This document shows, piece after piece, positions 3,829 to 33,753 of a DNA stretch of 33,753 bases. Position 1 is the first letter of the stretch. Each line of letters starts with the position of its first letter. Under the pieces are notes generated by a model, which was not told the origin of the DNA, ran no database searches, and saw nothing but the letters and a program-made list of their open reading frames with translations. The position numbers and the translations under genes were made by a program. This DNA is from a virus: positions 1-33,753 of IMG/VR virus record IMGVR_UViG_3300027969_003548; one strand, written 5' to 3'.

Positions 3829-3857
3829 ATTATAGTATGTATTTATTTAATTGTCAA
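3829..3857 (-). promoter_or_regulatory. Consensus sigma70 promoter for the nucleotidyltransferase operon
   Basis: Read on the minus strand: TTGACA (3852-3857), a 17-base spacer beginning ATTAAAT, and TATAAT (3829-3834). Both hexamers are perfect. The -35 is followed by ATTAAAT, the same extension seen in the right-end promoters of this window. Confidence 0.85.
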
Positions 3858-8790: not shown

Positions 8791-8819
8791 TTGACAATTA
8801 ATTCCTTGTTAGTTATAAT
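8791..8819 (+). promoter_or_regulatory. Consensus sigma70 promoter
   Basis: TTGACA (8791-8796), a 17-base spacer and TATAAT (8814-8819): both hexamers are perfect. It drives the gene at 8850, which has AGGTGATG as its ribosome site. Confidence 0.88.
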
Positions 8820-16326: not shown

Positions 16327-16544
16327 AGCTTTATGGACATACAGTAATTGTCAATGATGGAAACGTTGAAAAGGCACTTAGAAAATTTAAGAAAAAGATA
16401 CAGGACTCAGGTTTATTAGACGAGCTACGGGCACGGGAGACCTATGAAAAACCTACTACCGTCCGCAAGCGTAAAGCCGGTGCCGCCAAGTCACGCTGGA
16501 AAAAGAAGCTCCGTGCCCAAGAACTTCCTAAGAAATTATATTAA
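16323..16544 (+). CDS. rpsU: Ribosomal protein bS21
   Basis: A 73-residue homologue of small-subunit ribosomal protein bS21. It has an N-terminal strand, then [25 protein letters not shown], the family hallmark [11 protein letters not shown], and a basic helix ending KKLY. bS21 binds near the 3' end of 16S rRNA, where mRNA Shine-Dalgarno pairing happens, and it exchanges on and off ribosomes. A phage copy could therefore bias initiation toward phage mRNAs; this is inference. The start overlaps the clpX stop (ATGA) with a strong AAGGGAGA site just upstream. Phage-encoded bS21 is known from Pelagibacter and freshwater phages. Confidence 0.92.
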
Positions 16545-16581
16545 TTTTACCAAATAATATTAGTAGTTAATGATTTTATAG

Positions 16582-16621
16582 TATAATAAATACTATCGTA
16601 GGTGCCGATTATCGGGCTTAC
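16582..16621 (+). promoter_or_regulatory. Promoter-like element and leader hairpin before hsp20
   Basis: TATAAT (16582-16587) overlaps AATAAATA (16585-16592), a form of the NATAAATA phage element. No good -35 is seen. The expected transcript start is followed at once by a hairpin (16598-16621: outer stem GTAGG/CTTAC with one G-U pair, inner stem CCGA/TCGG, loop TTA). The ribosome site AAAGGAGA lies downstream, outside the hairpin. Confidence 0.5.
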
Positions 16622-16655
16622 AATATGTCACTTCGTTTAATTAAAGGAGAAAACA

Positions 16656-17102
16656 ATGACAAAAATCACTACCCTGGATCTCAATCCATTCTATCGTAAC
16701 GCTATTGGCGTAGATCAACTTTTTAATCGCATCATAAATCAGATTGATCATCACGGCAATGACGGCACAAACTATCCCCCATATAACATTATTAAAACTG
16801 GAGAAAATACTTTTGAAGTTCAAGTAGCAACTGCCGGCTTTGGTGAGGGAGAAGTTGATGTTGAAGTTAAGGACAATACCCTTATCGTCAAAGGTGTAAA
16901 GGCTGACAAAGATTTGCCAGAAGGACATGAATATTCTCACAAAGGTATTAGTGCTAGAAATTTTGTTCGTACTTTTAGTCTAGCTGATTATGTAGAAGTT
17001 ACTAGTGCGTTTTCTAAAAATGGCATTTTAACTGTAAAGTTAGAACGCAACATTCCAGAAGCACTTCAACCTAAATCTATTGCTATTACCTACGAATCGT
17101 AA
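16656..17102 (+). CDS. Small heat-shock protein, Hsp20/IbpA family
   Basis: A 148-residue alpha-crystallin-type chaperone. The N-terminus (NPFYRNAIGVDQLFNRI) is IbpA-like. The core strands follow: YNIIKTGENTFEVQVATAGF, VDVEVKDNTLIVKG, YSHKGISARNFVRTFSLADYV and the signature KNGILTVKLERNIPE. A C-terminal IAI motif is used for oligomer assembly. It holds unfolding proteins in a soluble state. Genes of this family are frequent in T4-like marine phages. Its neighbours clpX, bS21 and clpS form a protein-quality block. AAAGGAGA precedes the ATG. Confidence 0.92.
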   Translation: MTKITTLDLNPFYRNAIGVDQLFNRIINQIDHHGNDGTNYPPYNIIKTGENTFEVQVATAGFGEGEVDVEVKDNTLIVKGVKADKDLPEGHEYSHKGISARNFVRTFSLADYVEVTSAFSKNGILTVKLERNIPEALQPKSIAITYES

Positions 17103-17124
17103 TATAATATAATTTAGTAAATAC

Positions 17125-17150
17125 AGTACGGGATAATAATGTCCCGTACT
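17125..17150 (+). promoter_or_regulatory. Strong hairpin between hsp20 and clpS
   Basis: A perfect 9-bp stem (AGTACGGGA / TCCCGTACT) with an 8-base loop lies 22 bases after the hsp20 stop and 20 before the clpS ATG. No T-run follows, so it is more likely an mRNA processing or stability element than an intrinsic terminator. Overlapping TATAAT boxes lie just upstream (17103 onward). Confidence 0.6.
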
Positions 17151-17169
17151 AACCAAAAAAGGAATTAGT

Positions 17170-17478
17170 ATGTCGGAACAAGATGTAGTTACAAAGATTG
17201 ATATTAATCACGATCTTAAGGAACCTTCATTATTTAAAGTTATCTATTTAAATGATAACGCAACCACTATGGAATTTGTAGTTGAGTCATTAATGAACTT
17301 TTTTGATTATACCCCAGATACCGCAGTAAAAATTACACAAGATATCCATGAAGCAGGCTCTGCTATTGTAGCAGTATTGCCATACGAAATCGCAGAACAA
17401 AAAGGAATTGAAGTTACAATTTCTGCTCGGTCAGCAAACATGCCTCTGCAGGTTAAATTAGAGCCAGAAACAGATTAA
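17170..17478 (+). CDS. clpS: ClpS, N-degron adaptor protein
   Basis: A 102-residue ClpS. LFKVIYLNDNATTMEFVVESLMNFF contains the Asn-Asp pair that binds the free N-terminus of N-end-rule substrates. IHEAGSAIV contributes the conserved pocket His, and the core ends with AEQKG and NMPLQVKLEPE. The third acidic residue of the usual NDD is Asn here. ClpS normally delivers substrates to ClpA, not ClpX, and no clpA is seen in the window. It may act on host ClpAP or compete with host ClpS; this is inference. AAAGGA precedes the ATG. The stop overlaps the convergent metallophosphoesterase stop. Confidence 0.92.
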   Translation: MSEQDVVTKIDINHDLKEPSLFKVIYLNDNATTMEFVVESLMNFFDYTPDTAVKITQDIHEAGSAIVAVLPYEIAEQKGIEVTISARSANMPLQVKLEPETD

Positions 17479-18257
17479 ACTGATACTGTGATTCTTTTTG
17501 GATAATATACAGGTTGTGAGAATTCAGTATCCCCTCGCCCGCGAGGGTTACTTATATATCTAATGCCATCTATGACAGTATCCACTGGTCTATGATAGTG
17601 ACCAAAACACCATAATTTAATTTTATTTTCGCAATCTTCTTTTATCGCATCTTGAATGCGACTGTTGCCCATATAATTAAATCGCCATGAATCTACTAAT
17701 TGTAAGTCATGTTTGATAATTTCTGGCGTTGGCACTGTATGAGTAACTATAATAATAGACTTTACATCTTGATAAGTTTGTAATTTAGCAACACTGTTTG
17801 ACAGGTAACCAGCGTCACGATACGCTGTTGCATTTATACCTATGGCAGCCATTTGACTAATTTTATCTTTGTGTTGAACCCAGTTTACTGATTGTTCTAA
17901 ATCTAAACTAGGATCAAAATCATAACTCCACCAGCCATTGGTCGCTAGTATAGCAATACCATTCATGACTACAACGTTATCATGAAGATAAATTACATTG
18001 CCCATAGGTGCAATTAATTCTGTTAGTTCATTATAGCTGGTAGTTAAATCTTCGGCATAATCTTTATGTTCATCGTTGCCATCAACATAAAAAACTCCTA
18101 GATAAACTTTACTAAGTTGTTTTAGTGTATCAAGTACAAGAGTCCTGTCTCTAGCAACATCTCCTGCTACTATACAGTATTGTGATGTCGGCTGACCTTC
18201 CCAATCAAAGTTGTCCCAAGTTTCTCTATGTATATCGCTGATAAGATCAAAATTCAT
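17475..18257 (-). CDS. Calcineurin-like metallophosphoesterase
   Basis: A 260-residue protein with the metallophosphoesterase motif series: DLISDIH, VAGDVARD, YVDGNDEH (in place of GNHE), IIIVTHTVP and CFGHYHRP. These supply the two-metal site, so it is probably an active phosphatase, phosphodiesterase or nuclease; the substrate is unknown. It is unlike the PlcP-type enzyme at 19787 in sequence. It overlaps the clpS stop tail-to-tail by 4 bases and has only a poor ribosome site. Confidence 0.82.
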   Translation of the reverse strand: MNFDLISDIHRETWDNFDWEGQPTSQYCIVAGDVARDRTLVLDTLKQLSKVYLGVFYVDGNDEHKDYAEDLTTSYNELTELIAPMGNVIYLHDNVVVMNGIAILATNGWWSYDFDPSLDLEQSVNWVQHKDKISQMAAIGINATAYRDAGYLSNSVAKLQTYQDVKSIIIVTHTVPTPEIIKHDLQLVDSWRFNYMGNSRIQDAIKEDCENKIKLWCFGHYHRPVDTVIDGIRYISNPRGRGDTEFSQPVYYPKRITVSV

Positions 18258-18320
18258 TGAGATGCATCTTTTTATATGGTGTATGTGTATTCATGATAAT
18301 TATTTAACAGGAGATACAAA

Positions 18321-18674
18321 TTGAATATTATTTTTGGAAACAATGAATTAGAGCAGTTAAGAGACAAATATATAGTACTTGAATTAGATACCGTGACTAT
18401 TAAAAGTAGTAAACCTATTACAGCATATTGCGTTATAGAAAATCTACCCATAGATGAAATGCCACGGGTTGATAACTTTAAAAAAATTCATGCTGAATTA
18501 ATGGAAAACTATCGCAATAGAAACTGGGATTTTTGTATACAGGCAATTGAACAATTAATGGGATCCTGGGGTAAACAAATTGATTCATTTTATACAGTAT
18601 TACTTACCAGAATAGCTGAATATAAACAAAATGAACCAGATGAAAACTGGACAGGCGTAATTCCTAAAAATTAA
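18321..18674 (+). CDS. Hypothetical protein, TTG start
   Basis: A 117-residue protein. The start is a TTG at 18321, supported by a good ribosome site (CAGGAGAT) 7 bases before it. It shows LRDKYIVLELDTVTI, a strand-rich first half, and a helical NYRNRNWDFCIQAIEQLMGSW second half. Similar short proteins with a KYxVLELDT start appear familiar from marine phages, but no function is known. Its stop lies 2 bases from the convergent glycosyltransferase stop. Confidence 0.6.
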   Translation: MNIIFGNNELEQLRDKYIVLELDTVTIKSSKPITAYCVIENLPIDEMPRVDNFKKIHAELMENYRNRNWDFCIQAIEQLMGSWGKQIDSFYTVLLTRIAEYKQNEPDENWTGVIPKN

Positions 18675-18676
18675 TT

Positions 18677-19678
18677 TTATTTTTTAGGAACAAGATGTGC
18701 TCTAAATATTTCCCAAGCATATTCCCAACTCCAACGTTCGCTGCCTACTGCTACGCTATCTCTGTTTAATCCAAGGCAGCGATACGTAGCTGTTGATAAT
18801 GATTCATCCATATATCCTGTAACATCTTCGTCAATTACATCTTTTGGACCTTGACATGGGTAAGCAGCAACCGGAGTACCACACGCCATTGCTTCTATCA
18901 TTACAATACCAAATGTTTCCCACTGACTTGGAAATACAAATACATCAGCATTAGCATAATAACTGGCTAATTCTATACCTGTTTTGAAGCCTACAAATTC
19001 AACATCTGGATATTGTTTACGATAAGTTGCTAACATTGGACCATCGCCTACCATTATTTTGCGACAATTAGGAAAGTCTAATTCAAAGAAATCTTTCAAA
19101 TTCTTTTCTTTGCTTACTCTGGCAACACATAGTAAAACTGTCTGTTCATTTTTGTCTATTCTGCTACTAGGATTAAAAATTTCTCTATCCATCCCACGGG
19201 TCCATGAAACAAGTTCGCCATCAAATCCGTGGTCTTGCAATTCTTCAACCATACTTTTAGTAGTAGTTAATACTTTGCCACTATGTTTGTGAAACCAACG
19301 AGCAAATCCCCATGTTAAAACTTCAGGTATTCCAAAAAGTTTTTTAAGACCTTCTGGAAATTTTGTGTGATAGGCAGTATTGTACCGATAATTATGTTTT
19401 TCAAGATATTGCCTAGCACACAAACCAATCGGACCCTCAGTGGCAATGTGAATATGATCAGGATTAATATCCTCAATTATTTTGCCAATCTTCCATGGAA
19501 AGGCAATCTTAATTTGATTGTAGCCAGGGCAGTCAACATAGCGAAAACGCATTGGATCAATATATACAATGCGATAGTTGTTCCGAATAGCACACGCCTC
19601 AATATTTTTATAGGTAGTGACTACGCCATTAATCTGATCCGGTAAATTGTCAGTTACTATTAGAATTGTTTTTTGCAT
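18677..19678 (-). CDS. GT4 glycosyltransferase, Agt-like (diacylglycerol glycosylation)
   Basis: A 333-residue GT-B glycosyltransferase. The N-terminal half shows NGVVTTYKNIE, HIATEGPIGLCARQYL and YHTKFPEGL. The C-terminal half has VARVSKEKNL, VGDGP, and the GT4 EX7E motif in WETFGIVMIEAMACGTPVAAYPCQGP. The HIATEGPxGL...YHTxFPE pattern is that of the glycosyltransferases paired with PlcP in proteobacteria, which sugar-coat diacylglycerol to replace phospholipids when phosphate is scarce. The gene lies downstream of a PlcP-like gene on the same strand, strengthening this reading. The sugar donor (glucose or glucuronate) cannot be told. It is slightly shorter than bacterial homologues. Confidence 0.85.
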   Translation of the reverse strand: MQKTILIVTDNLPDQINGVVTTYKNIEACAIRNNYRIVYIDPMRFRYVDCPGYNQIKIAFPWKIGKIIEDINPDHIHIATEGPIGLCARQYLEKHNYRYNTAYHTKFPEGLKKLFGIPEVLTWGFARWFHKHSGKVLTTTKSMVEELQDHGFDGELVSWTRGMDREIFNPSSRIDKNEQTVLLCVARVSKEKNLKDFFELDFPNCRKIMVGDGPMLATYRKQYPDVEFVGFKTGIELASYYANADVFVFPSQWETFGIVMIEAMACGTPVAAYPCQGPKDVIDEDVTGYMDESLSTATYRCLGLNRDSVAVGSERWSWEYAWEIFRAHLVPKK

Positions 19679-19833
19679 TCGCCCACTACCTTAAAATTTT
19701 CAAATTTAATCCAATATTTCATATTGGCTTTAGCATACTCACATGCAGCTTGATTTTCAAACGGAATTTGTATTTTTGCTGGTATGTCATTGGAGTTGTT
19801 GATGTGTACTGCTATCAGTAATAATATCCACAT
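19660..19833 (-). CDS. Small exported-type protein hidden between plcP-like and agt-like genes
   Basis: A 57-residue ORF in a third frame, overlapping the last 47 bases of the PlcP-like gene and the first 19 of the glycosyltransferase. It starts at an ATG with AGGAGA 7 bases before it. It opens MWILLLIAVHINNSN, a short hydrophobic signal or anchor, and continues with IPFENQAACEYAKANMKYW and FKVVGECKKQF. The paired cysteines and ENQAAC-type pattern are typical of small phage periplasmic proteins. It fills the 108-base gap between the two lipid genes, so it is likely real and co-expressed. Its function is unknown. Confidence 0.6.
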   Translation of the reverse strand: MWILLLIAVHINNSNDIPAKIQIPFENQAACEYAKANMKYWIKFENFKVVGECKKQF

Positions 19834-20587
19834 GATCTTTCTCCTGTATCCAAGTAACTATTTCCCATTGTCCATCATGATGCTCTACTAATGCGGTACA
19901 ACTTTCCACCCAATCGCCATCGTTCATGTACGTAACACCATCTATTTCTTTTATCTCTGCGTGATGTATGTGTCCGCAAATTACCCCATCGAATCCTTTT
20001 TTCTTACAATATGAAGCTAAGTTCTTTTCAAATTGAAATATAAAGTCTACTGCTCGCTTAACTCGGCGTTTGAGATATTGACTAAGACTCCAGTAACCAA
20101 ACCCCATACGATGCCTAATCCAATTAAATTTACTGTTAAGAGAAAGCACTGTATCATATGCCCTATCACCTAAGAAACTGATCCATGGCGCCAATCTAGT
20201 GATACCGTCAAATAAATCTCCGTGGGTAACTAGATATCTTTTTCCATCTATGCCGACATGTTCTGCTTGATTCATTATTTCTATTTGTCCAAAACCAATG
20301 CCATATGGTATTAATGGACGAAGAAATTCATCATGATTTCCTGCTATGTAAATTATTTTTGTACCACGCTTGGCATGTCCTAATACACGACGAATTACAT
20401 TGCTATGACTTTGATTCCATTTCCAACGATTTTGTTGAATTTTCCATGCATCAATTATGTCACCTACCATGTATAATGTATCACATGTATTGTTTTTAAG
20501 AAAATTATTTAATTGATTAGCCTTACAGTCTTTGGTTCCCAAATGAACATCGGAAATAAAAATTGTTCTGTACTTTTTTTCTGACAT
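19787..20587 (-). CDS. PlcP-like metallophosphoesterase (phospholipase C type; LpxH-related)
   Basis: A 266-residue enzyme: TIFISDVHLGTKD, YMVGDIIDAW, IYIAGNHDEFLRP, YLVTHGDLFDG, and VICGHIHHAEI...GVTYMNDGDWVESCTALVEHHDG. The metal ligands are complete. This order and the WVESCTALVEHHDG end match the manganese-dependent PlcP family, which splits phosphatidyl lipids to diacylglycerol under phosphate limitation; LpxH is the more distant alternative. The Agt-like gene follows it. Together they could convert host phospholipid to glycolipid and free phosphate. Its upstream region holds TATAAT/AATAAATA (20663-20673). Confidence 0.85.
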   Translation of the reverse strand: MSEKKYRTIFISDVHLGTKDCKANQLNNFLKNNTCDTLYMVGDIIDAWKIQQNRWKWNQSHSNVIRRVLGHAKRGTKIIYIAGNHDEFLRPLIPYGIGFGQIEIMNQAEHVGIDGKRYLVTHGDLFDGITRLAPWISFLGDRAYDTVLSLNSKFNWIRHRMGFGYWSLSQYLKRRVKRAVDFIFQFEKNLASYCKKKGFDGVICGHIHHAEIKEIDGVTYMNDGDWVESCTALVEHHDGQWEIVTWIQEKDHVDIITDSSTHQQLQ

Positions 20588-20662
20588 TTGTGATCCAAAA
20601 GTTACTGGTTACGAGTTCCAGTGATACTCTATCTTGTACCCGATTTTAAGTTACCGCACTAG

Positions 20663-20673
20663 TATTTATTATA
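20663..20673 (-). promoter_or_regulatory. Promoter-like element for the plcP-agt unit
   Basis: On the minus strand TATAAT (20668-20673) overlaps AATAAATA (20663-20670), the same overlapping arrangement as before hsp20. No strong -35 is visible. It lies 76 bases before the PlcP-like ATG. Confidence 0.4.
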
Positions 20674-20690
20674 ATAGCAGCACTTAACTG

Positions 20691-20897
20691 TTACTTTTTT
20701 GTTACTGTTCCCATAATATAATATGGCATGAAATAAACGGTTAGCATATTTAACACCATCATATTATATATTTCGTTACTCCAATACTTGTTAATATCTT
20801 GCTGTGTAGGTTTATACATTTGACTAAATGCTAATGGCAGTGGTGTCATATCTAACATATATACCCTTGATAGCAAATATTTATCTATTTTTATCAT
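20691..20897 (-). CDS. Possible small hydrophobic-ended protein
   Basis: A 68-residue ORF (MIKIDKYLLSRVYMLDMTPL start; hydrophobic MMVLNMLTVYFMPYYIMG end). It has no clear ribosome site, and it is the only ORF in the 430-base gap between the PlcP-like gene and the UvdE operon. It may be a small membrane protein, or just an open frame. The family is not recognised. Confidence 0.3.
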   Translation of the reverse strand: MIKIDKYLLSRVYMLDMTPLPLAFSQMYKPTQQDINKYWSNEIYNMMVLNMLTVYFMPYYIMGTVTKK

Positions 20898-20982
20898 AGC
20901 AATAATTGATTAGATCTGAACTAGTTTTTCTGCCAAATTTTGGTAAAGATACATTTGACAACGTTTTGGCTATATTAACCGA

Positions 20983-21011
20983 TTGACAATCCTTGCATAA
21001 CACAGTATAAT
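20983..21011 (+). promoter_or_regulatory. Consensus sigma70 promoter giving a near-leaderless transcript
   Basis: TTGACA (20983-20988), a 17-base spacer, TATAAT (21006-21011), all perfect. The ATG at 21018 is about where transcription should begin, so the mRNA should have no leader or almost none. Confidence 0.85.
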
Positions 21012-21017
21012 AGTGTT

Positions 21018-21230
21018 ATGAAAGATAGTTTACCATTAACCTCTAAACAGGTAGAATTTGCCCATGCCTCCAAAATGATACGATACTGTCGTTTAAATTT
21101 TGGTCCGCGTGGGGAACGATGGGATTTTGATGGTGTAAAATATATTAGATTTCAGTTTAAGGAGGAGAAAGACCGCACTTGGTTTTACTTTGTTTTCGCA
21201 AATGATATAAAGGATCCACATGAAAGGTAA
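21018..21230 (+). CDS. Small hypothetical protein, first gene of the uvdE unit
   Basis: A 70-residue protein whose ATG sits at the predicted transcription start. It shows SKMIRYCRLNFGPRGERWDF and YIRFQFKEEKDRTWFYFVF. The C-terminal FxF...TWFxFxF pattern is like that of the small paralogue group at 25679-27295. It overlaps the UvdE gene by 11 bases. It could be a genuine small protein or mainly a translational lead-in for uvdE. Its function is unknown. Confidence 0.6.
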   Translation: MKDSLPLTSKQVEFAHASKMIRYCRLNFGPRGERWDFDGVKYIRFQFKEEKDRTWFYFVFANDIKDPHER

Positions 21231-22257
21231 GCTGGGATTTGCTTGCAAATGGATTGATCACCCCGATCAAGTCAATGGTATTAAACCATCTGACGATGCT
21301 AAGAAGTACAATACAGGAGGCACTACCGTAGCATGGCTAAATCGCCAGACTAGGGAAGTTGCTGAACAAAAACTCTGGGACTTAATGGTACAAAATATTG
21401 AGTCCACATATCAACTTGTTAATAAGGTAGGAAATTTAGATGAACACCTTCGTATGGTTCGCATTAGTAGTGATATTTTACCAGTCTATACTCATGATAG
21501 CTGGCGTTATTTTTGGCGTTTGCCTGACGTTATCAATTACCTCGGAACGGCGTTCAATAAAGTTGGCGACAGGGCTAGGAGCAGTGGGGTGCGTCTTAGC
21601 TTCCATCCTGGTCAGTTCTGCGTTCTGGCTTCAGATTCTGACAGCATTGTTTCTAGATCAATAGAGGAGTTTGAATATCATGCGGACATGGCAAGATGGA
21701 TGGGCTACGGGAAAAAATTCCAAGACTTCAAAATCAACGTGCATATTGCTGGGCGGCAAGGGCCAGAGGGTATTAGGAAAGTCTTGGGTAGCCTCAGTGC
21801 GGAAGCCCGAAACTGCATCACTATTGAAAATGAAGAAAATGCATGGGGGTTAGATGATGCTCTTACTATTAGCGATATTGTTCCTATTGTGCTTGATATT
21901 CATCACCATTGGTGTCGTGAAGGCGAATACATTGCAGCCAATTCCGATCGGATTGCTCGTGTGGTGGATAGCTGGCGTGGTGTCAGGCCTACTTTACATT
22001 ATAGTGTTAGTAGAGAAGATTGGCTCCCAGACCATGATGTAAATGTATTGCCAGACTATAATAAGCTATTAGCAGAAGGTAAAAACAAACAAAAGTTACG
22101 AGCACATAGTAATTTTATGTGGAATACTGCTTGCAATGAATGGGCATTATCTCATTTGTCCTGGGCAGATATTATGGTAGAATCAAAAGGAAAGAATCTT
22201 TCTTCCTTTAACTTATATAGGCAGTGGAAAAATGGAATTGATTACAGTAGCCAGTAG
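21220..22257 (+). CDS. UV-damage endonuclease, UvdE/UvsE family
   Basis: A 345-residue TIM-barrel endonuclease of the UvdE family, which nicks DNA 5' of UV photoproducts in alternative excision repair. Family blocks are KLGFACKWI, HLRMVRISSDILPVYTH, VRLSFHPGQFCVLAS, FKINVHIAGRQG, CITIENEENAWGLDD, VPIVLDIHHHWC and LRAHSNFMWN. The several His, Glu and Asp of the metal centre are visible in these blocks. It is driven with the small upstream gene by a perfect sigma70 promoter, suggesting early expression for protecting phage DNA in sunlit water. Its last 26 bases overlap the next gene. Confidence 0.9.
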   Translation: MKGKLGFACKWIDHPDQVNGIKPSDDAKKYNTGGTTVAWLNRQTREVAEQKLWDLMVQNIESTYQLVNKVGNLDEHLRMVRISSDILPVYTHDSWRYFWRLPDVINYLGTAFNKVGDRARSSGVRLSFHPGQFCVLASDSDSIVSRSIEEFEYHADMARWMGYGKKFQDFKINVHIAGRQGPEGIRKVLGSLSAEARNCITIENEENAWGLDDALTISDIVPIVLDIHHHWCREGEYIAANSDRIARVVDSWRGVRPTLHYSVSREDWLPDHDVNVLPDYNKLLAEGKNKQKLRAHSNFMWNTACNEWALSHLSWADIMVESKGKNLSSFNLYRQWKNGIDYSSQ

Positions 22258-22531
22258 TAATATCTGGCAATATATTAAGCAAGATTGGCATAGCAATCGT
22301 ACCAGATTTCTAGCAGAAGTCTTTGCCTGGCTATGTTCGTTGGTAAGCGCAATTATATTTGCGGTAACGGTTCCAACCATTCCAGTAATTCCACTTTATA
22401 CTATCTTTATCAGTGGATGTATTGCTACTGCCTGGGCATGCTGGACCAGACGGAGTTTTGGACTATTAATCAACGCTGTCTGTCTGGTCGTTATTGATGC
22501 AATTGGACTGATTCGTATGCTGCTTATGTAG
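22232..22531 (+). CDS. Small inner-membrane protein
   Basis: A 99-residue protein with a short polar N-terminus (IWQYIKQDWHSNRTRF) and three hydrophobic segments: FLAEVFAWLCSLVSAIIFAV, VIPLYTIFISGCIATAWACW and FGLLINAVCLVVIDAIGLIRMLL. It starts inside the 3' end of uvdE in another frame and overlaps the convergent next gene by 8 bases at its end. The family is not recognised; a small multi-pass host membrane modifier is possible. Confidence 0.62.
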   Translation: MELITVASSNIWQYIKQDWHSNRTRFLAEVFAWLCSLVSAIIFAVTVPTIPVIPLYTIFISGCIATAWACWTRRSFGLLINAVCLVVIDAIGLIRMLLM

Positions 22532-22724
22532 CAGCAGTCTTTTTGCGTCTTCTGGTAGTTTTGACGGCTCCTGTGGCCTCTTTTTTATCTGCCACAACTG
22601 GTGCCGGTTCTTCAACTGGTGCCGCTACAACTGGTGTAGGTGCTTCCACTTTATATGGCGCTGGCTCTACTACCGCCACTGGCTTAGGTGAAAGTCCAAA
22701 TAATCTTTTTAAAAATGCTAACAT
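22524..22724 (-). CDS. Small Pro/Ala/Val-rich protein with basic C-terminus
   Basis: A 66-residue protein with an AGGAGA ribosome site. It starts MLAFLKRLFGLSP, an amphipathic helix, followed by about 40 residues of Pro-Val-Ala-Glu repeats and a basic end KTTRRRKKTAAT, similar in style to histone-H1-like or AlgP-like tails. It may bind DNA or sit at the membrane through its N-terminal helix. The opposite-strand frame over the same bases lacks a ribosome site and is rejected. Confidence 0.62.
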   Translation of the reverse strand: MLAFLKRLFGLSPKPVAVVEPAPYKVEAPTPVVAAPVEEPAPVVADKKEATGAVKTTRRRKKTAAT

Positions 22725-22771
22725 AGTAATCTCCTGATATTATATTTAACTTATTTTTAATATAGGTAGAA

Positions 22772-23371
22772 TTATTCTACAATGAATTTATTATTCTTTT
22801 TATAGTTTTCTTCTTTCGTAATAATTCTAAGATTGTTCTCTACATGAAGTCCACATACTAGTGGATGTTTAAGAGGTATGATATGATCAACTTGATATGA
22901 AATTCCAGTATCAGCAGACAGTCTCTTAGATTCTTCATAAATTTTTTTTATTTTTTCTTTATCCGCCCATTTAGGAGTAACTATTTTTAATAAATCATTA
23001 CGATCATAAAATTTTCTACGATCACCACTGATATCTATTTGTTTTCCTTTTTTTAAAGCTTTTAATAATTTCCATTGTAATATAGGACCCATGAAATCAA
23101 CAGATGTATTCTCTTGAGTTTTTTGACTAATAGCTGTGACTTTTTCTTTTTTAATTGAAGTTTTTTTATTCTCTCTCAATACTAATTTTTCTTTTTTAAT
23201 GGGAGTTTTTATCTTTTCAACTAAAACTAATTTTTTTGGTTCTATTGGTTCAACTAATTTATGTTTGCGAGACGCACTAAATTTTGCTGCATGAGATCTA
23301 CTGCAAAAGTTCCATCTCCAATTTCTAGTTGGGTTGTTACATTCAGGTAATTTACAAAGTTTAGTTTCCAT
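22772..23371 (-). CDS. HNH endonuclease with Cys-rich N-terminus
   Basis: A 199-residue mobile-type endonuclease. The N-terminus (CKLPECNNPTRNWRWNFCS) is a small zinc-binding knuckle. A Lys-rich linker holds two copies of KLVL...K(T)...IKKEK. The catalytic part is YQVDHIIPLKHP...HVENNLRIITKEEN...KKNNKF, the HNH (DHxxPL...N...N) pattern. It probably cuts phage DNA as a free-standing homing enzyme. It is very AT-rich and has no visible ribosome site, like a recent insertion. It sits alone between oppositely regulated small genes. Confidence 0.82.
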   Translation of the reverse strand: METKLCKLPECNNPTRNWRWNFCSRSHAAKFSASRKHKLVEPIEPKKLVLVEKIKTPIKKEKLVLRENKKTSIKKEKVTAISQKTQENTSVDFMGPILQWKLLKALKKGKQIDISGDRRKFYDRNDLLKIVTPKWADKEKIKKIYEESKRLSADTGISYQVDHIIPLKHPLVCGLHVENNLRIITKEENYKKNNKFIVE

Positions 23372-23470
23372 ATATTTATTTTCAAATTTGTGCGGTACAA
23401 CATAAATAACTTTATATGCTCGTTTACGATAACGGCATAATCATTAGTATACTTATAAGGAAATCACAAA

Positions 23471-23629
23471 ATGAAAACTTTTTTAAAATGGATCACAAGT
23501 CTATTCGATACACCTTCATACGGACAACGTATGGAAAAATATATTACCAGCAAAAATCCCACCAACATTGCCGATGTTGAATACTGGGCCAGTACATTTG
23601 AGCGCGGCGTACAAAAGGGGTTAATTTAA
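23471..23629 (+). CDS. Small hypothetical protein (52 residues)
   Basis: A 52-residue ORF with AAGGAAATC as ribosome site: MKTFLKWITSLFDTPSYG, then MEKYITSKNPTNIADVEYW and FERGVQKGLI. The amphipathic N-terminal helix followed by an ADVEYW segment resembles small bacterial DUF3563-type proteins, a weak match. Its TAA overlaps the next ATG (TAATG). Confidence 0.55.
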   Translation: MKTFLKWITSLFDTPSYGQRMEKYITSKNPTNIADVEYWASTFERGVQKGLI

Positions 23630-23718
23630 TGAGAAAATTTTTAAAAGCAGTTCTATCCGCAATTATTGAAGCCAGAATGCGTCAGGCTAGACTTGATATC
23701 AGATATAGATATTATTGA
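23629..23718 (+). CDS. Very small basic protein (29 residues)
   Basis: A 29-residue ORF coupled to the previous gene by TAATG: MRKFLKAVLSAIIEARMRQA, then RLDIRYRYY. It is a basic amphipathic helix with a Tyr-rich end. Coupling, and the similar style to the first gene's MKTFLKW start, suggest that both are real and co-translated. The function is unknown. Confidence 0.45.
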   Translation: MRKFLKAVLSAIIEARMRQARLDIRYRYY

Positions 23719-23735
23719 TATTTTACCAAAAATGC

Positions 23736-23773
23736 TTGACAATATTGTTGCAATGCAATATAATATATAAATA
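23736..23773 (+). promoter_or_regulatory. Dual promoter: consensus sigma70 plus T4-type late octamer
   Basis: TTGACA (23736-23741), a 17-base spacer, TATAAT (23759-23764), followed at 23766-23773 by TATAAATA. The phasin gene may thus be read both early by host polymerase and late by phage-modified polymerase. Confidence 0.75.
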
Positions 23774-23785
23774 AGATAGAGAACA

Positions 23786-23810
23786 GTTAGTGCCCAATGG
23801 TGGGGCTAAC
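23786..23810 (+). promoter_or_regulatory. Leader hairpin before the phasin gene
   Basis: GTTAG pairs with CTAAC and CCC with GGG around an AATGGTG loop, just after the late octamer. The ribosome site CCGGAGA follows at about 23827-23833, outside the stem. Confidence 0.45.
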
Positions 23811-23838
23811 ATAAAGCTCGCTTAACCGGAGATTTAAA

Positions 23839-24087
23839 ATGGAATTTATGAAAACACTAACAGAAGCAATGGATCCTGTAAAGATGATTGACCAGGCCCA
23901 AAAGAACGTATCAACAATGTTGAACTTTGTTCAACCAAAAGAATTAAGCTGGACACTAACTAAATTAGCAGAAGCTAATGCAGAATATGCTAAAGCCAGT
24001 GTAACTGCGTTCAAAACAATGGCAGATCTTGCCAAAGATTCAGCATCAAAGTTTACAGCAAATCTAGACAAATCAGCAGCTAAGTAA
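23839..24087 (+). CDS. Phasin-family protein
   Basis: An 82-residue all-helical protein: MEFMKTLTEAMDPVKMIDQAQKNVS, FVQPKELSWTLTKLAEANAEYAKASVTAF and MADLAKDSASKFTANLDKSAAK. This Ala/Lys/Phe amphipathic heptad pattern is that of phasins, proteins that coat polyhydroxyalkanoate granules in proteobacteria. It is shorter than the bacterial Phasin_2 domain (about 100-120). It has its own promoters, a structured leader and an intrinsic terminator, so it is a monocistronic, probably highly expressed gene. Possible roles are mobilising host carbon stores or chaperone-like action. A generic amphipathic helical protein is the main alternative. Confidence 0.7.
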   Translation: MEFMKTLTEAMDPVKMIDQAQKNVSTMLNFVQPKELSWTLTKLAEANAEYAKASVTAFKTMADLAKDSASKFTANLDKSAAK

Positions 24088-24098
24088 TTAGCTCATAC

Positions 24099-24124
24099 AA
24101 AGCCCCTAACGGGGCTTTTTTTTT
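24099..24124 (+). terminator. Intrinsic terminator after the phasin gene
   Basis: AAAGCCCC (24099-24106), loop TAAC, GGGGCTTT (24111-24118), with a run of nine T to 24124. It is a textbook rho-independent terminator 11 bases after the phasin stop, the clearest one in the window. Confidence 0.95.
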
Positions 24125-24148
24125 GGATAATTTTTGGCATAATAAATA

Positions 24149-24177
24149 TTGACAATCGAATAGAAACGCAGTACAAT
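24149..24177 (+). promoter_or_regulatory. Sigma70 promoter for the ClpP-like gene
   Basis: TTGACA (24149-24154), a 17-base spacer and TACAAT (24172-24177). An AATAAATA (24140-24147) precedes it. The leader to the ATG at 24198 is only about 14 bases and has no clear ribosome site. Confidence 0.8.
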
Positions 24178-24197
24178 CATAGCTTAAAAGTCAAAAC

Positions 24198-24776
24198 ATG
24201 GCATCAAATATAAACGATAACGATAATAGCAAAGAACCCGGGCAATTACTTCAAGATTCTGGTATGTATGTATTCATGGATGAAGTTGGCCATGAGACAA
24301 TTAAACCTGTAATTGAATGGATATTATGTGCCAATCATGTGGCTAAACGCAAGAAAAAAGAATTACTTCTAATGATATGTTCGGAAGGCGGCAGTGTTGA
24401 CCATGCTTTTGCTCTGATAGATGTAATGCGATCTAGTACGATCCCAATTAAAACTGTCGGTCTAGGCACAATTGCCAGTAGTGGTTTGCTAATATTTCTA
24501 GCTGGCACTAAGGGTTCCAGAATCCTCACACCCAAAACAAGTATACTAAGTCATCAATATTCTGCATACTCCGAGGGAAAACACCACGAATTGTTTTCAA
24601 TAACTAAGGAATTTAATCTGGTTAATCAACGTATGGTAGAACATTACAAAGAAACTACCGGACTAGATGAAGATACAGTTAAATCTCAACTGTTGCCCTC
24701 TAGTGATGTTTGGCTTACAGCAGAAGAAGCCTTAGCCCTAGGCATTTGCGATTACATAAGTGATCTTAAAAAATAA
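24198..24776 (+). CDS. ClpP-like serine protease (divergent)
   Basis: A 192-residue ClpP-fold peptidase. Aligning with ClpP gives Ser94 in GTIASSG, His119 in SILSHQY and Asp170 in SSDVWLTAEEA, so the catalytic triad is intact. SEGGSVDHAFALIDVM replaces the usual SPGGSVxxGxAIYDTM. The polar N-terminal extension (about 20 residues) and the changed hairpin suggest different ring contacts. It lies just before a canonical clpP, each with its own promoter, so a mixed two-subunit barrel (as in ClpP1P2 of some bacteria) or two separate rings are possible. It is a phage paralogue of unknown partner. Confidence 0.88.
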   Translation: MASNINDNDNSKEPGQLLQDSGMYVFMDEVGHETIKPVIEWILCANHVAKRKKKELLLMICSEGGSVDHAFALIDVMRSSTIPIKTVGLGTIASSGLLIFLAGTKGSRILTPKTSILSHQYSAYSEGKHHELFSITKEFNLVNQRMVEHYKETTGLDEDTVKSQLLPSSDVWLTAEEALALGICDYISDLKK

Positions 24777-24785
24777 CCATATAGC

Positions 24786-24814
24786 TTGACAATATAATGT
24801 GGACATGTTATTAT
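24786..24814 (+). promoter_or_regulatory. Sigma70 promoter for clpP
   Basis: TTGACA (24786-24791), a 17-base spacer and TATTAT (24809-24814). A GTTAT-T-ATAAC inverted repeat spans the -10. The ATG at 24845 has AAGGAAG upstream. Confidence 0.7.
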
Positions 24815-24844
24815 AACGTAACATTAACATTATAAGGAAGTTGA

Positions 24845-25438
24845 ATGCCCAGTTTAATCCCCATGGTAGTAGAACAAACCGCTAAAGGCGAACGTAGCTA
24901 CGATATCTATTCCCGTCTTCTTAAAGACCGTATCGTTATGCTAGATACAGATGTCAACGAAACTAGCTCAAGTCTAGTAGTAGCACAGATGTTATTCCTC
25001 GAAGCTGAAGATCCAGACGCAGATATCCTATTTTATATTAACTCACCAGGTGGATCGGTTACCGCCGGTATGGCCATTTATGATACCATGCAGTTTATCA
25101 AGTGTGATGTTTCCACTATTGTTATGGGCCAAGCCTGTTCCATGGGTTCATTGTTAGCACAAGCAGGCACAGCAGGCAAGCGATTGATTCTGCCTTATGC
25201 CAGACATATGATACATCAACCATCAGGCGGTGCTCGTGGACAAGCCACCGACATGTTGATTCAGGTTACCGAGATTCTCAAGATGAAAAAAGAACTCACC
25301 CAGATCTATGTCAATCATAACTCAGCAGGCAAGACATTTGATGAACTTGCTTCTGATATGGAACGTGATAACTTCATGTCAGCACAAGAAGCAGTGCAGT
25401 ATGGATTAGCCGATAAGATTATTACCAAGCGAGATTAA
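24845..25438 (+). CDS. clpP: ClpP, ATP-dependent protease proteolytic subunit
   Basis: A 197-residue canonical Clp[43 protein letters not shown], catalytic Ser99 in MGQACSMGS, His124 in ARHMIHQP, Asp175 in [12 protein letters not shown]. The N-terminal processing region is short, as in E. coli ClpP. It is expected to form a tetradecameric chamber fed by ClpX (a phage copy lies at 15133) or by host ClpX/ClpA. The base composition is less AT-rich than its small neighbours, and the sequence is close to bacterial ClpP, which suggests acquisition from a host. Confidence 0.95.
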
Positions 25439-31034: not shown

Positions 31035-31706
31035 ATGAAAACACTAAGAGAAATGATTGACCTGATAGAAGGTATTAACGATCCTGCCATATTCAAAGTA
31101 GTATTCCTAATAGGCGGACCCGGCAGTGGCAAGGGCTATATATCAAAACAACTAGGCCTCCAAAGCCTAGGATACGTTCCCATCAACAGTGATACAGCAT
31201 TTGAATTCCTCATGACTAAGAATAACCTAGACTTTAAGATGCCAGACTCAGAAGAAGAAAAGCGTAATCAAGTCAGAGACCGTGCAAAACAAGTCACCGC
31301 ATCTAAGATAGCTCTAGCAGTCCATGGAAGATTAGGCATAGTTATAGACGGCACCGGTGATAACTTTGAAAAAGTCATCAGAATGAAAGCCAAATTTGAC
31401 GAACTAGGATATAATAACTTTGTTGTTATAGTGAATACCGACTTTGAGGTTGCAAAACAACGTAATCAACTCCGTGCCAGAACAGTACCAGACCATGTTA
31501 TCAGTGATAAATGGCATGCCGCCCATAACAATATGGGTAAGTTTGCAAACGCTTTTGAGAATGCCGCTGTCATAGATAACAGTGGAGATAATGAAACTAC
31601 CAATCAACAGATCCAAACCACGTATAAGAAACTAGTGAAATTCACAAACCAAGCACCTACCAAGAATCCTGCTAGAGCATGGATTCAAAGTAACAAGCCA
31701 GCATAG
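31035..31706 (+). CDS. P-loop kinase, zeta-toxin/polynucleotide-kinase-like
   Basis: A 223-residue kinase. It starts MKTLREMIDLIEG, a version of the tag with a possible cut after LIE. Walker A is GGPGSGKG, followed by PINSDTAFE, IVIDGTGDNFEKV (Walker B region) and RNQLRARTVPDHVI...KW, the Arg-rich lid. The order fits zeta-toxin/PNK-type kinases, which phosphorylate sugar nucleotides or nucleic-acid ends. It diverges from the tagged operon at the palindromic late promoter, so it is probably packaged with that set. The 3' end is followed by 430 bases without genes. Confidence 0.8.
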   Translation: MKTLREMIDLIEGINDPAIFKVVFLIGGPGSGKGYISKQLGLQSLGYVPINSDTAFEFLMTKNNLDFKMPDSEEEKRNQVRDRAKQVTASKIALAVHGRLGIVIDGTGDNFEKVIRMKAKFDELGYNNFVVIVNTDFEVAKQRNQLRARTVPDHVISDKWHAAHNNMGKFANAFENAAVIDNSGDNETTNQQIQTTYKKLVKFTNQAPTKNPARAWIQSNKPA

Positions 31707-31738
31707 AAACACAACAACAATAACCCTAGACCAAAAAT

Positions 31739-31877
31739 CTACCGGGATCCTAGATAAAAAATTTATTCCGGTTTTGGAAACCACCGTTTTTCTACCGTCG
31801 TCCAGCTCCGGCGTAGACAGTAACCTACCGTACATACTACCGTAATCTACCAGATATCGGAAAAATAAAACCTACCG
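31739..31877. repeat. Cluster of CTACCG hexamers in non-coding DNA
   Basis: CTACCG occurs at 31739, 31792, 31825, 31837 and 31872, with CTACCA at 31847, together with several CCGG-containing motifs (TCCGG, ATCCGG). No ORF of any length is convincing here. Spacing is irregular, so this is a cluster of binding-site-like words, possibly part of a replication or regulatory region. Confidence 0.5.
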
Positions 31878-31959
31878 GATATCCGGAAAAACAAGTTTAC
31901 GCAAACTTTATTTGGCGCGCCAGCACTAAAGTATACTTGTATTGTAGCTTAAAAACAAC

Positions 31960-31979
31960 ACTGGGGTGTCCCAGTTTTT
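31960..31979 (+). terminator. Intrinsic terminator
   Basis: ACTGGG (31960-31965), loop GTGT, CCCAGT (31970-31975), then a run of five T to 31979. It would end transcription from the kinase gene 250 bases upstream. Confidence 0.75.
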
Positions 31980-31985
31980 GGAAAT

Positions 31986-32037
31986 CGCTTGACAATTAAA
32001 TAAAACGATTTCGCTTGACAATTAAATAGAACGATTT
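31986..32037 (+). repeat. Two tandem 26-base repeats carrying TTGACAATTAAAT
   Basis: Copies at 31986-32011 and 32012-32037 differ at one base. Each has the -35-like TTGACAATTAAAT found in the right-end promoters, but in the opposite orientation and without a -10 17 bases downstream. The first copy is framed by AAATCG and CGATTT. Confidence 0.75.
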
Positions 32038-32038
32038 A

Positions 32039-32055
32039 AACGCTCTGTAAGCGTT
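32039..32055. other. Small hairpin
   Basis: AACGCT, loop CTGTA, AGCGTT. It lies directly after the tandem repeats. Its role is unknown; it may be part of the same regulatory or terminator region. Confidence 0.5.
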
Positions 32056-32088
32056 CAAAATCAAAAGTGATGCTCTGCTATCAACTGA

Positions 32089-32121
32089 CGCACTAGAGAG
32101 CGTCTGAAGCTCTCTAGTGCG
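32089..32121 (-). terminator. Long perfect hairpin, likely terminator or mRNA end for the right-end gene
   Basis: A 13-bp perfect stem (CGCACTAGAGAGC with its complement at 32109-32121) and a 7-base loop lie 16 bases beyond the stop of the minus-strand gene at 32137. There is no T-run, so termination is not certain; it may protect the 3' end. Confidence 0.55.
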
Positions 32122-32136
32122 CTTACCGCGCACGTT

Positions 32137-32733
32137 TTACGATACAGTCAGCACTTGCTTATTGACTGTCAACTTGACTAAGTTGCTCAGCGTTACAGTG
32201 CGCAGCGTTACATCGTGCGTTACGTCGTTAGTCTTGTTATAGACTAACGTGCTATCGTTCAGCAGCTTAGCTGCGTCACTCTTAGTCATAAACGATGCAG
32301 CGTACTCTTTCGTTGACTCTACATCGTCAACGAACACAATCGACTCAGCACGATTGTAGATCGCATACAAGTATTGCTTAGCAGCGTCTTTCTTGTGTTG
32401 CACGATGCTAAAGCAGTCAGTATGCTCGAAGTAAGTTTCGCTTACAACGAAGTCAGTAATCTCTGACTCGCTGAGCTTGTTAGCTGAGCGCAGCACTTGC
32501 TTACGATACAAATCGTAATCTTTAATCGAAGCGAATAACTGAGCGTTGCAGCGCACAGCTTTACGAATCTTAACAGCACGATTCGCTGCGCTAGTGTTAA
32601 GCTCAACACAGTATTCGATGTTAGCGAAGTTAGTTCCTGCTCGCAGTGCTGCGCTGATTTGCGCTGCGCTGATTTTGTTCTTTGATGCGTCTTGCTTTGC
32701 TTTCACTGCTACTGCGTCAGATGATGTAAACAT
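32137..32733 (-). CDS. Right-end early-type hypothetical protein
   Basis: A 198-residue protein behind two tandem promoters and the conserved leader, with GAGAG as ribosome site. It is rich in Ala, Lys, Val, Thr and Asp, with a helical N-terminal half (KAKQDASKNKISAAQISAALRAG) and a more strand-like end (VTLRTVTLSNLVKLTVNKQVLTVS). There is no membrane segment and the family is not recognised. The DNA is visibly richer in GCG/CGC words than the rest of the window. Confidence 0.68.
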   Translation of the reverse strand: MFTSSDAVAVKAKQDASKNKISAAQISAALRAGTNFANIEYCVELNTSAANRAVKIRKAVRCNAQLFASIKDYDLYRKQVLRSANKLSESEITDFVVSETYFEHTDCFSIVQHKKDAAKQYLYAIYNRAESIVFVDDVESTKEYAASFMTKSDAAKLLNDSTLVYNKTNDVTHDVTLRTVTLSNLVKLTVNKQVLTVS

Positions 32734-32780
32734 ATTCGCTCTCGCTTGTTAAGAACACTTCGTTTGACTTCAGAAACTAC
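32734..32780 (-). promoter_or_regulatory. Conserved 5' leader, copy 1
   Basis: On the minus strand GTTTCTGAAG (32768-32777), a CAAACGAAGTG stretch, CTTAACAAG (32745-32753), then GAGAG and the ATG. The same blocks in the same order precede the genes starting at 33265 and 33587. Confidence 0.75.
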
Positions 32781-32809
32781 ATTTTACAGATTGACGATTT
32801 AATTGTCAA
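32781..32809 (-). promoter_or_regulatory. Right-end promoter P1
   Basis: On the minus strand TTGACA (32804-32809), a 17-base spacer starting ATTAAATCG, and TAAAAT (32781-32786). It serves the gene starting at 32733. Confidence 0.82.
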
Positions 32810-32864
32810 GCTGACTTCACTTCGCTGCGCTGCTCTGCACTTCGTTTGCTGCGTCAACAACTGC

Positions 32865-32903
32865 ATTATGAACGATGACGATTTAATTGTCAAATCGTCA
32901 TCG
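32865..32903 (-). promoter_or_regulatory. Right-end promoter P2 inside a perfect inverted repeat
   Basis: On the minus strand TTGACA (32888-32893), a 17-base spacer and CATAAT (32865-32870). The -35 sits in a 12-base perfect inverted repeat: CGATGACGATTT (32873-32884) and AAATCGTCATCG (32892-32903) around AATTGTC. This could be an operator. It is the second promoter upstream of the gene starting at 32733. Confidence 0.78.
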
Positions 32904-32914
32904 CTTGCTACTCG

Positions 32915-33265
32915 CTACGCTACGACAATCAGCGTTTGCAGCGCAGCAATTGCTGCTAAGTCTTTCTTGAATCGTGCTTCAGTCACGACTCGCTCTCGTG
33001 CTTTGTACTGAGCTTTGCTCAGCACTGTCACACTAGACGATAAGCACTCATTATCGTCATAATCGTCAGCGTCAACGTCAACGATTGCTTCGATCACTCG
33101 CACTTCAACGAACGCATCAGCGCACTCGAACAAGAAAATGTTCGTTCGTTCGTTCGTCAGCAGATTGTCGAGCTTGATATCTGCTTCAGTGTTTTCTAAG
33201 CAATACATTGCATAGTAAGACTCAGCACAATCACGCACGACTGACAAAGTGTAGCTTGTTTTCAT
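32915..33265 (-). CDS. Right-end early-type small protein
   Basis: A 116-residue protein behind promoter P3 and the conserved leader (CTTAACAAGAGAG then ATG). It has an acidic centre (VDVDADDYDDNECLSS) and many short Ala/Val stretches; three cysteines. It has no recognised family. It ends just before promoter P2 of the next gene. Its GC-richer composition is shared with its neighbours. Confidence 0.65.
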   Translation of the reverse strand: MKTSYTLSVVRDCAESYYAMYCLENTEADIKLDNLLTNERTNIFLFECADAFVEVRVIEAIVDVDADDYDDNECLSSSVTVLSKAQYKARERVVTEARFKKDLAAIAALQTLIVVA

Positions 33266-33304
33266 GTTTCACTCTCTTGTTAAGTGTTTTGCTTCAGAAA
33301 CTCT
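33266..33304 (-). promoter_or_regulatory. Conserved 5' leader, copy 2
   Basis: On the minus strand GTTTCTGAAG, CAAAACA, CTTAACAAG and GAGAG in the same order as the leader at 32734-32780. It is slightly shorter because the CGAAGTG stretch is missing. Confidence 0.75.
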
Positions 33305-33343
33305 ATTATGAACGAAGTCGATTTAATTGTCAAATCGACTTCG
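33305..33343 (-). promoter_or_regulatory. Right-end promoter P3 inside a perfect inverted repeat
   Basis: On the minus strand TTGACA (33328-33333), a 17-base spacer and CATAAT (33305-33310). The -35 lies in a 12-base perfect inverted repeat, CGAAGTCGATTT (33313-33324) and AAATCGACTTCG (33332-33343), around AATTGTC. The arms differ from P2 yet still pair perfectly. Confidence 0.78.
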
Positions 33344-33353
33344 CTTGCTGCTA

Positions 33354-33587
33354 CTAGAATCGCTCAACGATCACGCTGATTGAAACATGATCGTAAGTAT
33401 TACGCTCATCATCTTCGACAATCTTGATTGTCACTTCTGCGTCATCACTAGACTGCAAAAACCATACTGATACTTCAGTATTATCACGACGATAATTTTC
33501 GTCTGCGTCATCAAACGTCATACAAGTTGCAATGTGTTGCTGAGCAATTTTAACAATTTCAGCAGCAGTCTGAGATACTTTACGCAT
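33354..33587 (-). CDS. Right-end early-type small protein
   Basis: A 77-residue protein. The ATG at 33587 is preferred over an in-frame GTG at 33599, because the GTG lies within the GAGAG ribosome site that all three right-end genes share. It starts MRKVSQTAAEIVKIAQQHIATC and has an acidic FDDADENYRRDN segment. The second half alternates polar and hydrophobic residues like a beta sheet (EVTIKIVEDDE, HVSISVIVERF). The family is not recognised. Confidence 0.65.
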   Translation of the reverse strand: MRKVSQTAAEIVKIAQQHIATCMTFDDADENYRRDNTEVSVWFLQSSDDAEVTIKIVEDDERNTYDHVSISVIVERF

Positions 33588-33632
33588 AGTCGCTCTCACT
33601 TGTTAAGAACTTCGTTTAACTTCAGAAACTGA
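33588..33632 (-). promoter_or_regulatory. Conserved 5' leader, copy 3
   Basis: On the minus strand GTTTCTGAAG, TTAAACGAAGTT, CTTAACAAG and TGAGAG before the ATG. It is close to copy 1 over its whole length. Confidence 0.75.
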
Positions 33633-33661
33633 ATTATTGCACACTACGATTTAATTGTCAA
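33633..33661 (-). promoter_or_regulatory. Right-end promoter P4
   Basis: On the minus strand TTGACA (33656-33661), a 17-base spacer starting ATTAAATCG, and AATAAT (33633-33638). It serves the gene starting at 33587. Confidence 0.8.
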
Positions 33662-33678
33662 CTAGTCGCTTTCGCTTT
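33645..33678. repeat. 34-base exact direct repeat, copy 1
   Basis: The 34 bases at 33645-33678 recur exactly at 33720-33753. The unit holds the -35 of P4 or P5 plus about 17 upstream bases ending in CGCTTTCGCTTT, so upstream promoter DNA is conserved too. Confidence 0.85.
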
Positions 33679-33707
33679 GCGATACAGTTTTCGCTGACAA
33701 CAACGAT

Positions 33708-33736
33708 ATATTAACTGAGTACGATTTAATTGTCAA
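33708..33736 (-). promoter_or_regulatory. Right-end promoter P5
   Basis: On the minus strand TTGACA (33731-33736), a 17-base spacer and TAATAT (33708-33713). It is a second, upstream promoter for the gene starting at 33587. Confidence 0.72.
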
Positions 33737-33753
33737 CTAGTCGCTTTCGCTTT
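33720..33753. repeat. 34-base exact direct repeat, copy 2 (runs to the window end)
   Basis: Identical to 33645-33678. The repeat may continue past the window, since it is cut by the last base. Confidence 0.85.

Follow-up and report, generated by a model that had tools for sequence, protein, structure and literature searches.

The window, by which we mean the whole stretch of DNA analysed here, is the 33,753-base virus record IMGVR_UViG_3300027969_003548, which is probably a fragment. No capsid, portal or terminase genes were identified in the window. The nrdB gene at its left end has Xanthomonas phage X1 as best isolate match (61% identity), and the annotated genes of X1 look T4-like. In IMG/VR there are at least 600 stretches with nrdB relatives, the best 80 of them at 80-95% identity. 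The source looks to be a large freshwater tailed phage with relatives that are T4-like in appearance.

The right end of the window has three small genes, here called ORFs A, B and C, all on the minus strand. Read along that strand, the region runs P5, P4, leader, ORF A, hairpin/P3, leader, ORF B, hairpin/P2, P1, leader, ORF C, hairpin, with P1 to P5 being promoters. The features are as follows, from the contig end inwards.

33720-33753, minus strand: outer copy of a 34-bp exact repeat, AAAGCGAAAGCGACTAGTTGACAATTAAATCGTA
33708-33736, minus strand: promoter P5, TTGACA-17-TAATAT, the outer of a tandem pair
33645-33678, minus strand: inner copy of the 34-bp repeat
33633-33661, minus strand: promoter P4, TTGACA-17-AATAAT, predicted driver of ORF A
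33588-33632, minus strand: leader A, with GTTTCTGAAG, CTTAACAAG and GAGAG
33354-33587, minus strand: ORF A, an orphan of 77 aa with no Gly or Pro and one Trp
33311-33345, minus strand: hairpin with a 16-bp stem overlapping the -35 of P3, a candidate terminator (-19.8 kcal/mol, z -5.8)
33305-33333, minus strand: promoter P3, TTGACA-17-CATAAT, predicted driver of ORF B
33266-33304, minus strand: leader B
32915-33265, minus strand: ORF B, an orphan of 116 aa with no Gly, Pro or Trp
32871-32905, minus strand: hairpin with a 16-bp stem overlapping the -35 of P2 (-21.8 kcal/mol, z -6.1)
32865-32893, minus strand: promoter P2, TTGACA-17-CATAAT, without the common leader and upstream of P1
32781-32809, minus strand: promoter P1, TTGACA-17-TAAAAT, predicted driver of ORF C
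32734-32780, minus strand: leader C
32137-32733, minus strand: ORF C, an orphan of 198 aa with one Gly and no Pro or Trp
32088-32122, minus strand: hairpin with a 14-bp stem after ORF C, without a T run, a candidate transcript end
31982-33753, no strand assigned: island of 1,772 bp almost free of GG and CC, reaching the contig end and thus at least this long
31985-32036, plus strand: two tandem 26-bp copies of TCGCTTGACAATTAAATARAACGATT, without a -10, at the left edge of the island
31960-31980, no strand assigned: ACTGGGGTGTCCCAGT, a hairpin with a T run, terminator-like, between convergent genes and the final GG-containing element ahead of the island

The initial annotation had reported five minus-strand promoters with 17-base spacers in under 1 kb, and this is borne out: exact TTGACAATTAAATCG occurs five times on the minus strand, with the -35 elements starting at 33736, 33661, 33333, 32893 and 32809, so that P5 to P1 together cover 956 bp. 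The 17-nt spacer is present in 5 of 5, and each has a -10 with two mismatches or fewer. At up to three mismatches TTGACAATTAAATCG has 12 sites in the window against 2.8 expected, a number reached in none of 100 shuffles, and in 32134-33753 there are five promoters against 0.26 expected from Markov shuffles. The 34-base exact repeat that had also been reported is real, and as its outer copy finishes exactly at base 33753, the last of the contig, it is probably owing to this repeat that the contig stops there. The TTGACAAT form of the -35 with a 17-nt spacer is found as well at all six strong promoters elsewhere in the window, at 3857 (minus strand) and at 8791, 20983, 23736, 24149 and 24786 (plus strand), with an exact occurrence of TTGACAATTAAAT at 3857. 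The TTGACAAT extension is thus a phage-wide trait and not specific to the right end. Given the host-sigma70 type of the promoters, it is reasonable to expect that the genes behind them would be expressed early.

Three of the promoters (P4, P3 and P1) are followed by a leader of about 40 nt, in which GTTTCTGAAG, a gap of 7-14 nt, CTTAACAAG and then GAGAG follow each other in the same order, each time ahead of an ORF, as the initial annotation had described. The GAGAG precedes the ATG by 5-6 nt in all three genes, and a ribosome-binding site is its best reading. It had also been suggested that the leader may be an RNA element, and with three ordered blocks conserved across the three leaders, and weak stems that could mask GAGAG in each, a regulatory RNA such as a riboswitch, thermosensor or protein-binding leader might be considered. 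However the leaders fold no better than shuffled sequences (z -0.15, 0.25 and 0.64), have no Rfam match, and in related phages are replaced at the same position by different leaders of similar length, so that we regard this reading as very improbable. With regard to matches elsewhere, the five in viral contigs were read as one conserved, DNA-polymerase-like coding stretch of other phages and were set aside, and none of the 17 in bacterial genomes has TTGACA or GAGAG nearby.

The genes themselves had been called unrelated, and blastp indeed finds no similarity among the three products. Neither did we find convincing relatives for ORFs A to C in phages, viral contigs, Pfam, PHROGs, NCBIfam, PADLOC or PDB, nor for ORF C, the only one also searched there, in plasmids and bacterial genomes. 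An Erythrobacter plasmid protein that aligns with ORF C (27% over 94 residues) is too weak a match for use, and the predicted structure of ORF C, with pLDDT 31, is unusable.

The hairpins at P3 and P2 start 8-9 nt past the stop codons of ORF A and ORF B respectively, and have the -35 in the loop and flanks. Their arms, as read from the sequence, differ by matched changes, CGATGAC/GTCATCG in the one and CGAAGTC/GACTTCG in the other. There are no comparable hairpins at P1 and P4, nor at most of the promoters of relatives, and all three hairpins, that after ORF C included, lack a long T run downstream. They may act as terminators, which would make these units composite promoter-terminators.

Such composites are known from T4-type phages as promoter-early stem-loops, or PeSLs (Arbiol et al. 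2010 and Comeau et al. 2014, as cited in PMC4503421). The array in the window resembles them in that strong sigma70-like units, all intergenic, are repeated between small genes of non-essential appearance in a region of orphan genes, with a stem-loop attached at two of the sites (P2 and P3). As with PeSLs, near-identical copies stand amid variable small genes: five promoters and three leaders in the window, and likewise the arrays in two related contigs, G001 and G006. There are also differences from PeSLs, as the repeat in the window includes a fixed leader and ribosome-binding site, its two hairpins, which have no T run, extend over the -35 itself, and its DNA is without GG and CC.

For comparison we took whole or near-whole contigs of about 20 nrdB relatives, together with contigs carrying relatives of the gene at 31035-31706, for which G001 has a relative at 69%. 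Several of these contigs have the same arrangement of a sigma70-type promoter, 17-nt spacer, fixed leader, GGAG and small gene. In G006 the leader ACTTGTATAGAAACTAAAAAGGAG is ahead of about eight genes, in G001 AGAATCTTAGACAGTTAGATAA.GGA is ahead of about six, and G020 and G021 have the leader ATACACATAAACAGCAAACAGGAG in common. The relatives' cassettes mostly finish in GGAG, where those of the window finish in GAGAG. A promoter scan of Xanthomonas phage X1 found no such promoters. As related contigs carry the same arrangement, the cassette is, on the sequences compared, a normal device of this group of freshwater phages. The initial annotation had called for a search of the rest of the genome and of relatives; the design was found in relatives with leaders of their own, and no cassette with the leader sequence of the window turned up among the matches elsewhere.

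Genes behind one leader in the same genome have no blastp match to each other. There are two gene pairs that could be matched between G001 and G006, one with 54.8% identity over 93 aa and the other with 28.6% over 84 aa, and in both pairs each copy carries the leader of its own genome. The pair at 55% identity is that of L326:10872 in G001 and L300:4632 in G006, with different genome-specific leaders. The leader thus appears to be a property of the genome rather than of the gene, which suggests concerted evolution of the promoter-leader cassettes inside each phage, and homogenisation of leaders within a genome seems the simplest reading of the data. With regard to the modular cassette proposed in the initial annotation, the repeated promoter and leader ahead of unrelated small genes stands, and extends to the relatives; slotting in of new genes is plausible, but the two pairs have the leaders of their own genomes. 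The cassettes could instead be mobile modules of PeSL type that travel with their genes, with recombination shuffling small genes in and out. Repeated promoter units before unrelated genes, some with a stem-loop, would fit this, as would the 34-bp repeat as a recombination substrate, and a classical terminator hairpin is directly before some related promoters (G013 L314:19033 and G025 L323:3792), giving terminator-plus-promoter composites. Given the two related gene pairs with different genome-specific leaders we think this somewhat unlikely, but mobile modules and within-genome homogenisation are compatible and not mutually exclusive. The cassettes show a group of uncultured freshwater phages standardising the expression of small orphan genes through a genome-specific start module, and this module can be used to find such genes.

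A second property of the right end was overlooked in the initial annotation and is very unusual. The island has 3 GG or CC where 122 (based on the rest of the contig) to 162 (based on composition) are expected, a deficit with Poisson log10 p of -48 to -65. On the plus strand there are three CC (at 32126, 32636 and 33462) and no GG. The O/E for GG is 0.02 in the island and 1.03 in the rest of the contig. GNG, in which the two G are separated, is at a normal level in the island (O/E 1.03), which places the constraint on the dinucleotide itself. Two runs without any GG or CC, of 826 and 510 bp, go far beyond any in the other sequence compared. Other loci totalling about 4.6 Mb, with overlaps counted twice, showed no comparable stretch, the lowest O/E for 1 kb being 0.395 against 0.01-0.02 in the island, and there is no depletion like that of the island in the relatives, in X1, in the SPO1 host-takeover region or in the early regions of RB49 and T4. 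The promoter string is present in 91 viral-contig stretches, and among those inspected none besides the window is GG/CC-poor. A milder shortage, with O/E of about 0.34-0.5 in many 500-bp windows, was seen in G017 (L337:8201-12000), a contig of 344 kb that carries an nrdB relative.

The coding DNA of the island has 2 GG or CC, whereas the codon usage of the phage would give 34.5 for these proteins (minimum 15 in 1,000 draws), and 35 are expected if its own synonymous codons are shuffled among positions. Gly, Pro and Trp number 1, 0 and 1 in the 395 residues of ORFs A to C, for expectations of 25, 15.4 and 5.7. The island is thus under an extreme local constraint that overrides both codon choice and amino-acid content. 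The non-coding part has one GG or CC in 578 bases, and the scarcity runs through promoters, leaders, hairpins and coding DNA alike. As both strands and the 578 non-coding bases are affected, the data point to a constraint acting on DNA and not on RNA, and avoidance at the RNA level was rejected on the same grounds. Two other causes were considered and rejected: cytosine deamination (CC to TC or CT), as AG and GA are not clearly in excess while GC and CG are, and a sequencing artefact in which GG is reduced to G, as AA and TT are normal and the ORFs intact.

The island begins where the terminator-like hairpin between convergent genes ends, at two opposite-strand copies of TTGACAATTAAAT. The boundary at 31980 is abrupt, GC rises to 0.43-0.45 and the CpG O/E goes from 0.74 to 1.54, as might be expected if the island were foreign, acquired recently from an element that avoids GG and CC or misassembled, with the avoidance belonging to another replicon. 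None of the contigs compared shares the island, and no relative has it by the same neighbour, as the nearest relative (69%) of the gene at 31035 has different genes in this place. However the promoter style fits the contig, in both the TTGACAAT of the six outside promoters and the exact TTGACAATTAAAT at 3857; the edge, as a terminator between convergent genes, is a natural module border; and CpG is already high in 31707-32133, most of which is ahead of the GG/CC-free part. On balance we consider a foreign origin unlikely.

Our best explanation of the whole is a sigma70 cassette array in an island that selection has cleared of GG and CC. We put the chances of this at about even, which is a compromise among separate judgements on its parts: that the array is real and PeSL-like in kind is very probable, that GG and CC are selected against at the DNA level in the source phage is likely, and that the selecting agent is a PAM-dependent defence is a tentative proposal. 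Each unit, with its TTGACAAT -35, 17-nt spacer, -10, fixed leader of about 40 nt and ribosome-binding site, would be transcribed by host sigma70 and express one small orphan gene. The hairpin at the gene end would probably limit read-through, and recombination would keep the leaders alike inside a genome, where they would supply standard translation initiation. GG and CC would have been removed by something that reads the dinucleotide, most likely a host defence, for which a candidate is CRISPR with a GG/CC PAM (type I-F, or type II with NGG). Island genes could then be expressed ahead of an attack on the remaining genome, or from the fragments that it leaves. It is conceivable, if somewhat less than an even chance, that genes without GG or CC, down to a ribosome-binding site that lacks GG, are invisible to such a defence, the rest of the genome being protected otherwise or expendable.

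Against this, T4-type phages package permuted ends, and a fixed first-entering end is therefore not expected. The remaining 32 kb or so of the contig is undepleted, so CRISPR could target it, and the PAM account thus needs special timing, expression from a cut genome or a special origin for the island. In favour of a PAM, type I-F systems have GG, a two-base word, as their canonical one (PMC7056967), and PAM depletion has been documented in phages and attributed to selection (Kupczok and Bollback 2014, PMC4246573). The published depletion is likewise a loss of a short motif needed by CRISPR. In the island the motif falls short of expectation also when composition (3 against 162) and codons (2 against 34.5) are controlled for. 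The published depletion is however an under-representation over phage genomes, whereas in the window the loss is about 98%, is confined to one island, and the rest is at a normal O/E of 1.03.

The absence of GG and CC might alternatively keep the region free of a phage or host DNA modification, or of a nuclease or restriction system that targets GG/CC, leaving it readable or uncut. The avoidance is strand-symmetric and includes non-coding DNA, which would fit, and X1 is annotated with genes of a 7-deazaguanine pathway (queuine tRNA-ribosyltransferase, a QueE-like protein, GTP cyclohydrolase and 6-pyruvoyl tetrahydrobiopterin synthase). However no stretch free of GG and CC is present in X1. Known restriction systems target longer words, the avoidance of which would spare some lone GG, and the island is enriched in GCGC and TCGA, so there is no general avoidance of restriction sites. 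We think such protection improbable. Returning to a selecting defence, if the island marks protection from one that reads GG/CC, it would give a direct readout of the defence faced and of the genes protected first, and GG/CC-free islands could, if this is true, be used as a guide in looking for counter-defence genes.

Clustered small early genes with many promoters are also known from Bacillus phage SPO1, in the host-takeover module of its terminal redundancy. The first 14 kb of SPO1 hold about 32 genes, and differ from the island in having no GG/CC depletion, with a lowest 1-kb O/E of 0.86. The cassette is of a known kind, but the missing letter pairs are very unusual.

Some other features of the window may be noted. 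The gene at 31035-31706 is a Zeta-toxin/AAA_33-type kinase, and its 69% relative in L208 extends into an extra domain, HAD-like by eye, that is absent in the window. The non-coding DNA at 31707-31981, between this kinase-like gene and the island, has about six CTACCG-type words, possibly protein-binding repeats, and then the terminator-like hairpin; the CpG O/E over 31707-32133 is 1.45. Within 15133-25438 there are proteostasis genes identified by Pfam, for ClpX (15133), ClpS (17170) and two ClpP-type proteases (24198 and 24845), and Hsp20-like and phasin-like ORFs are suggested there by eye only.
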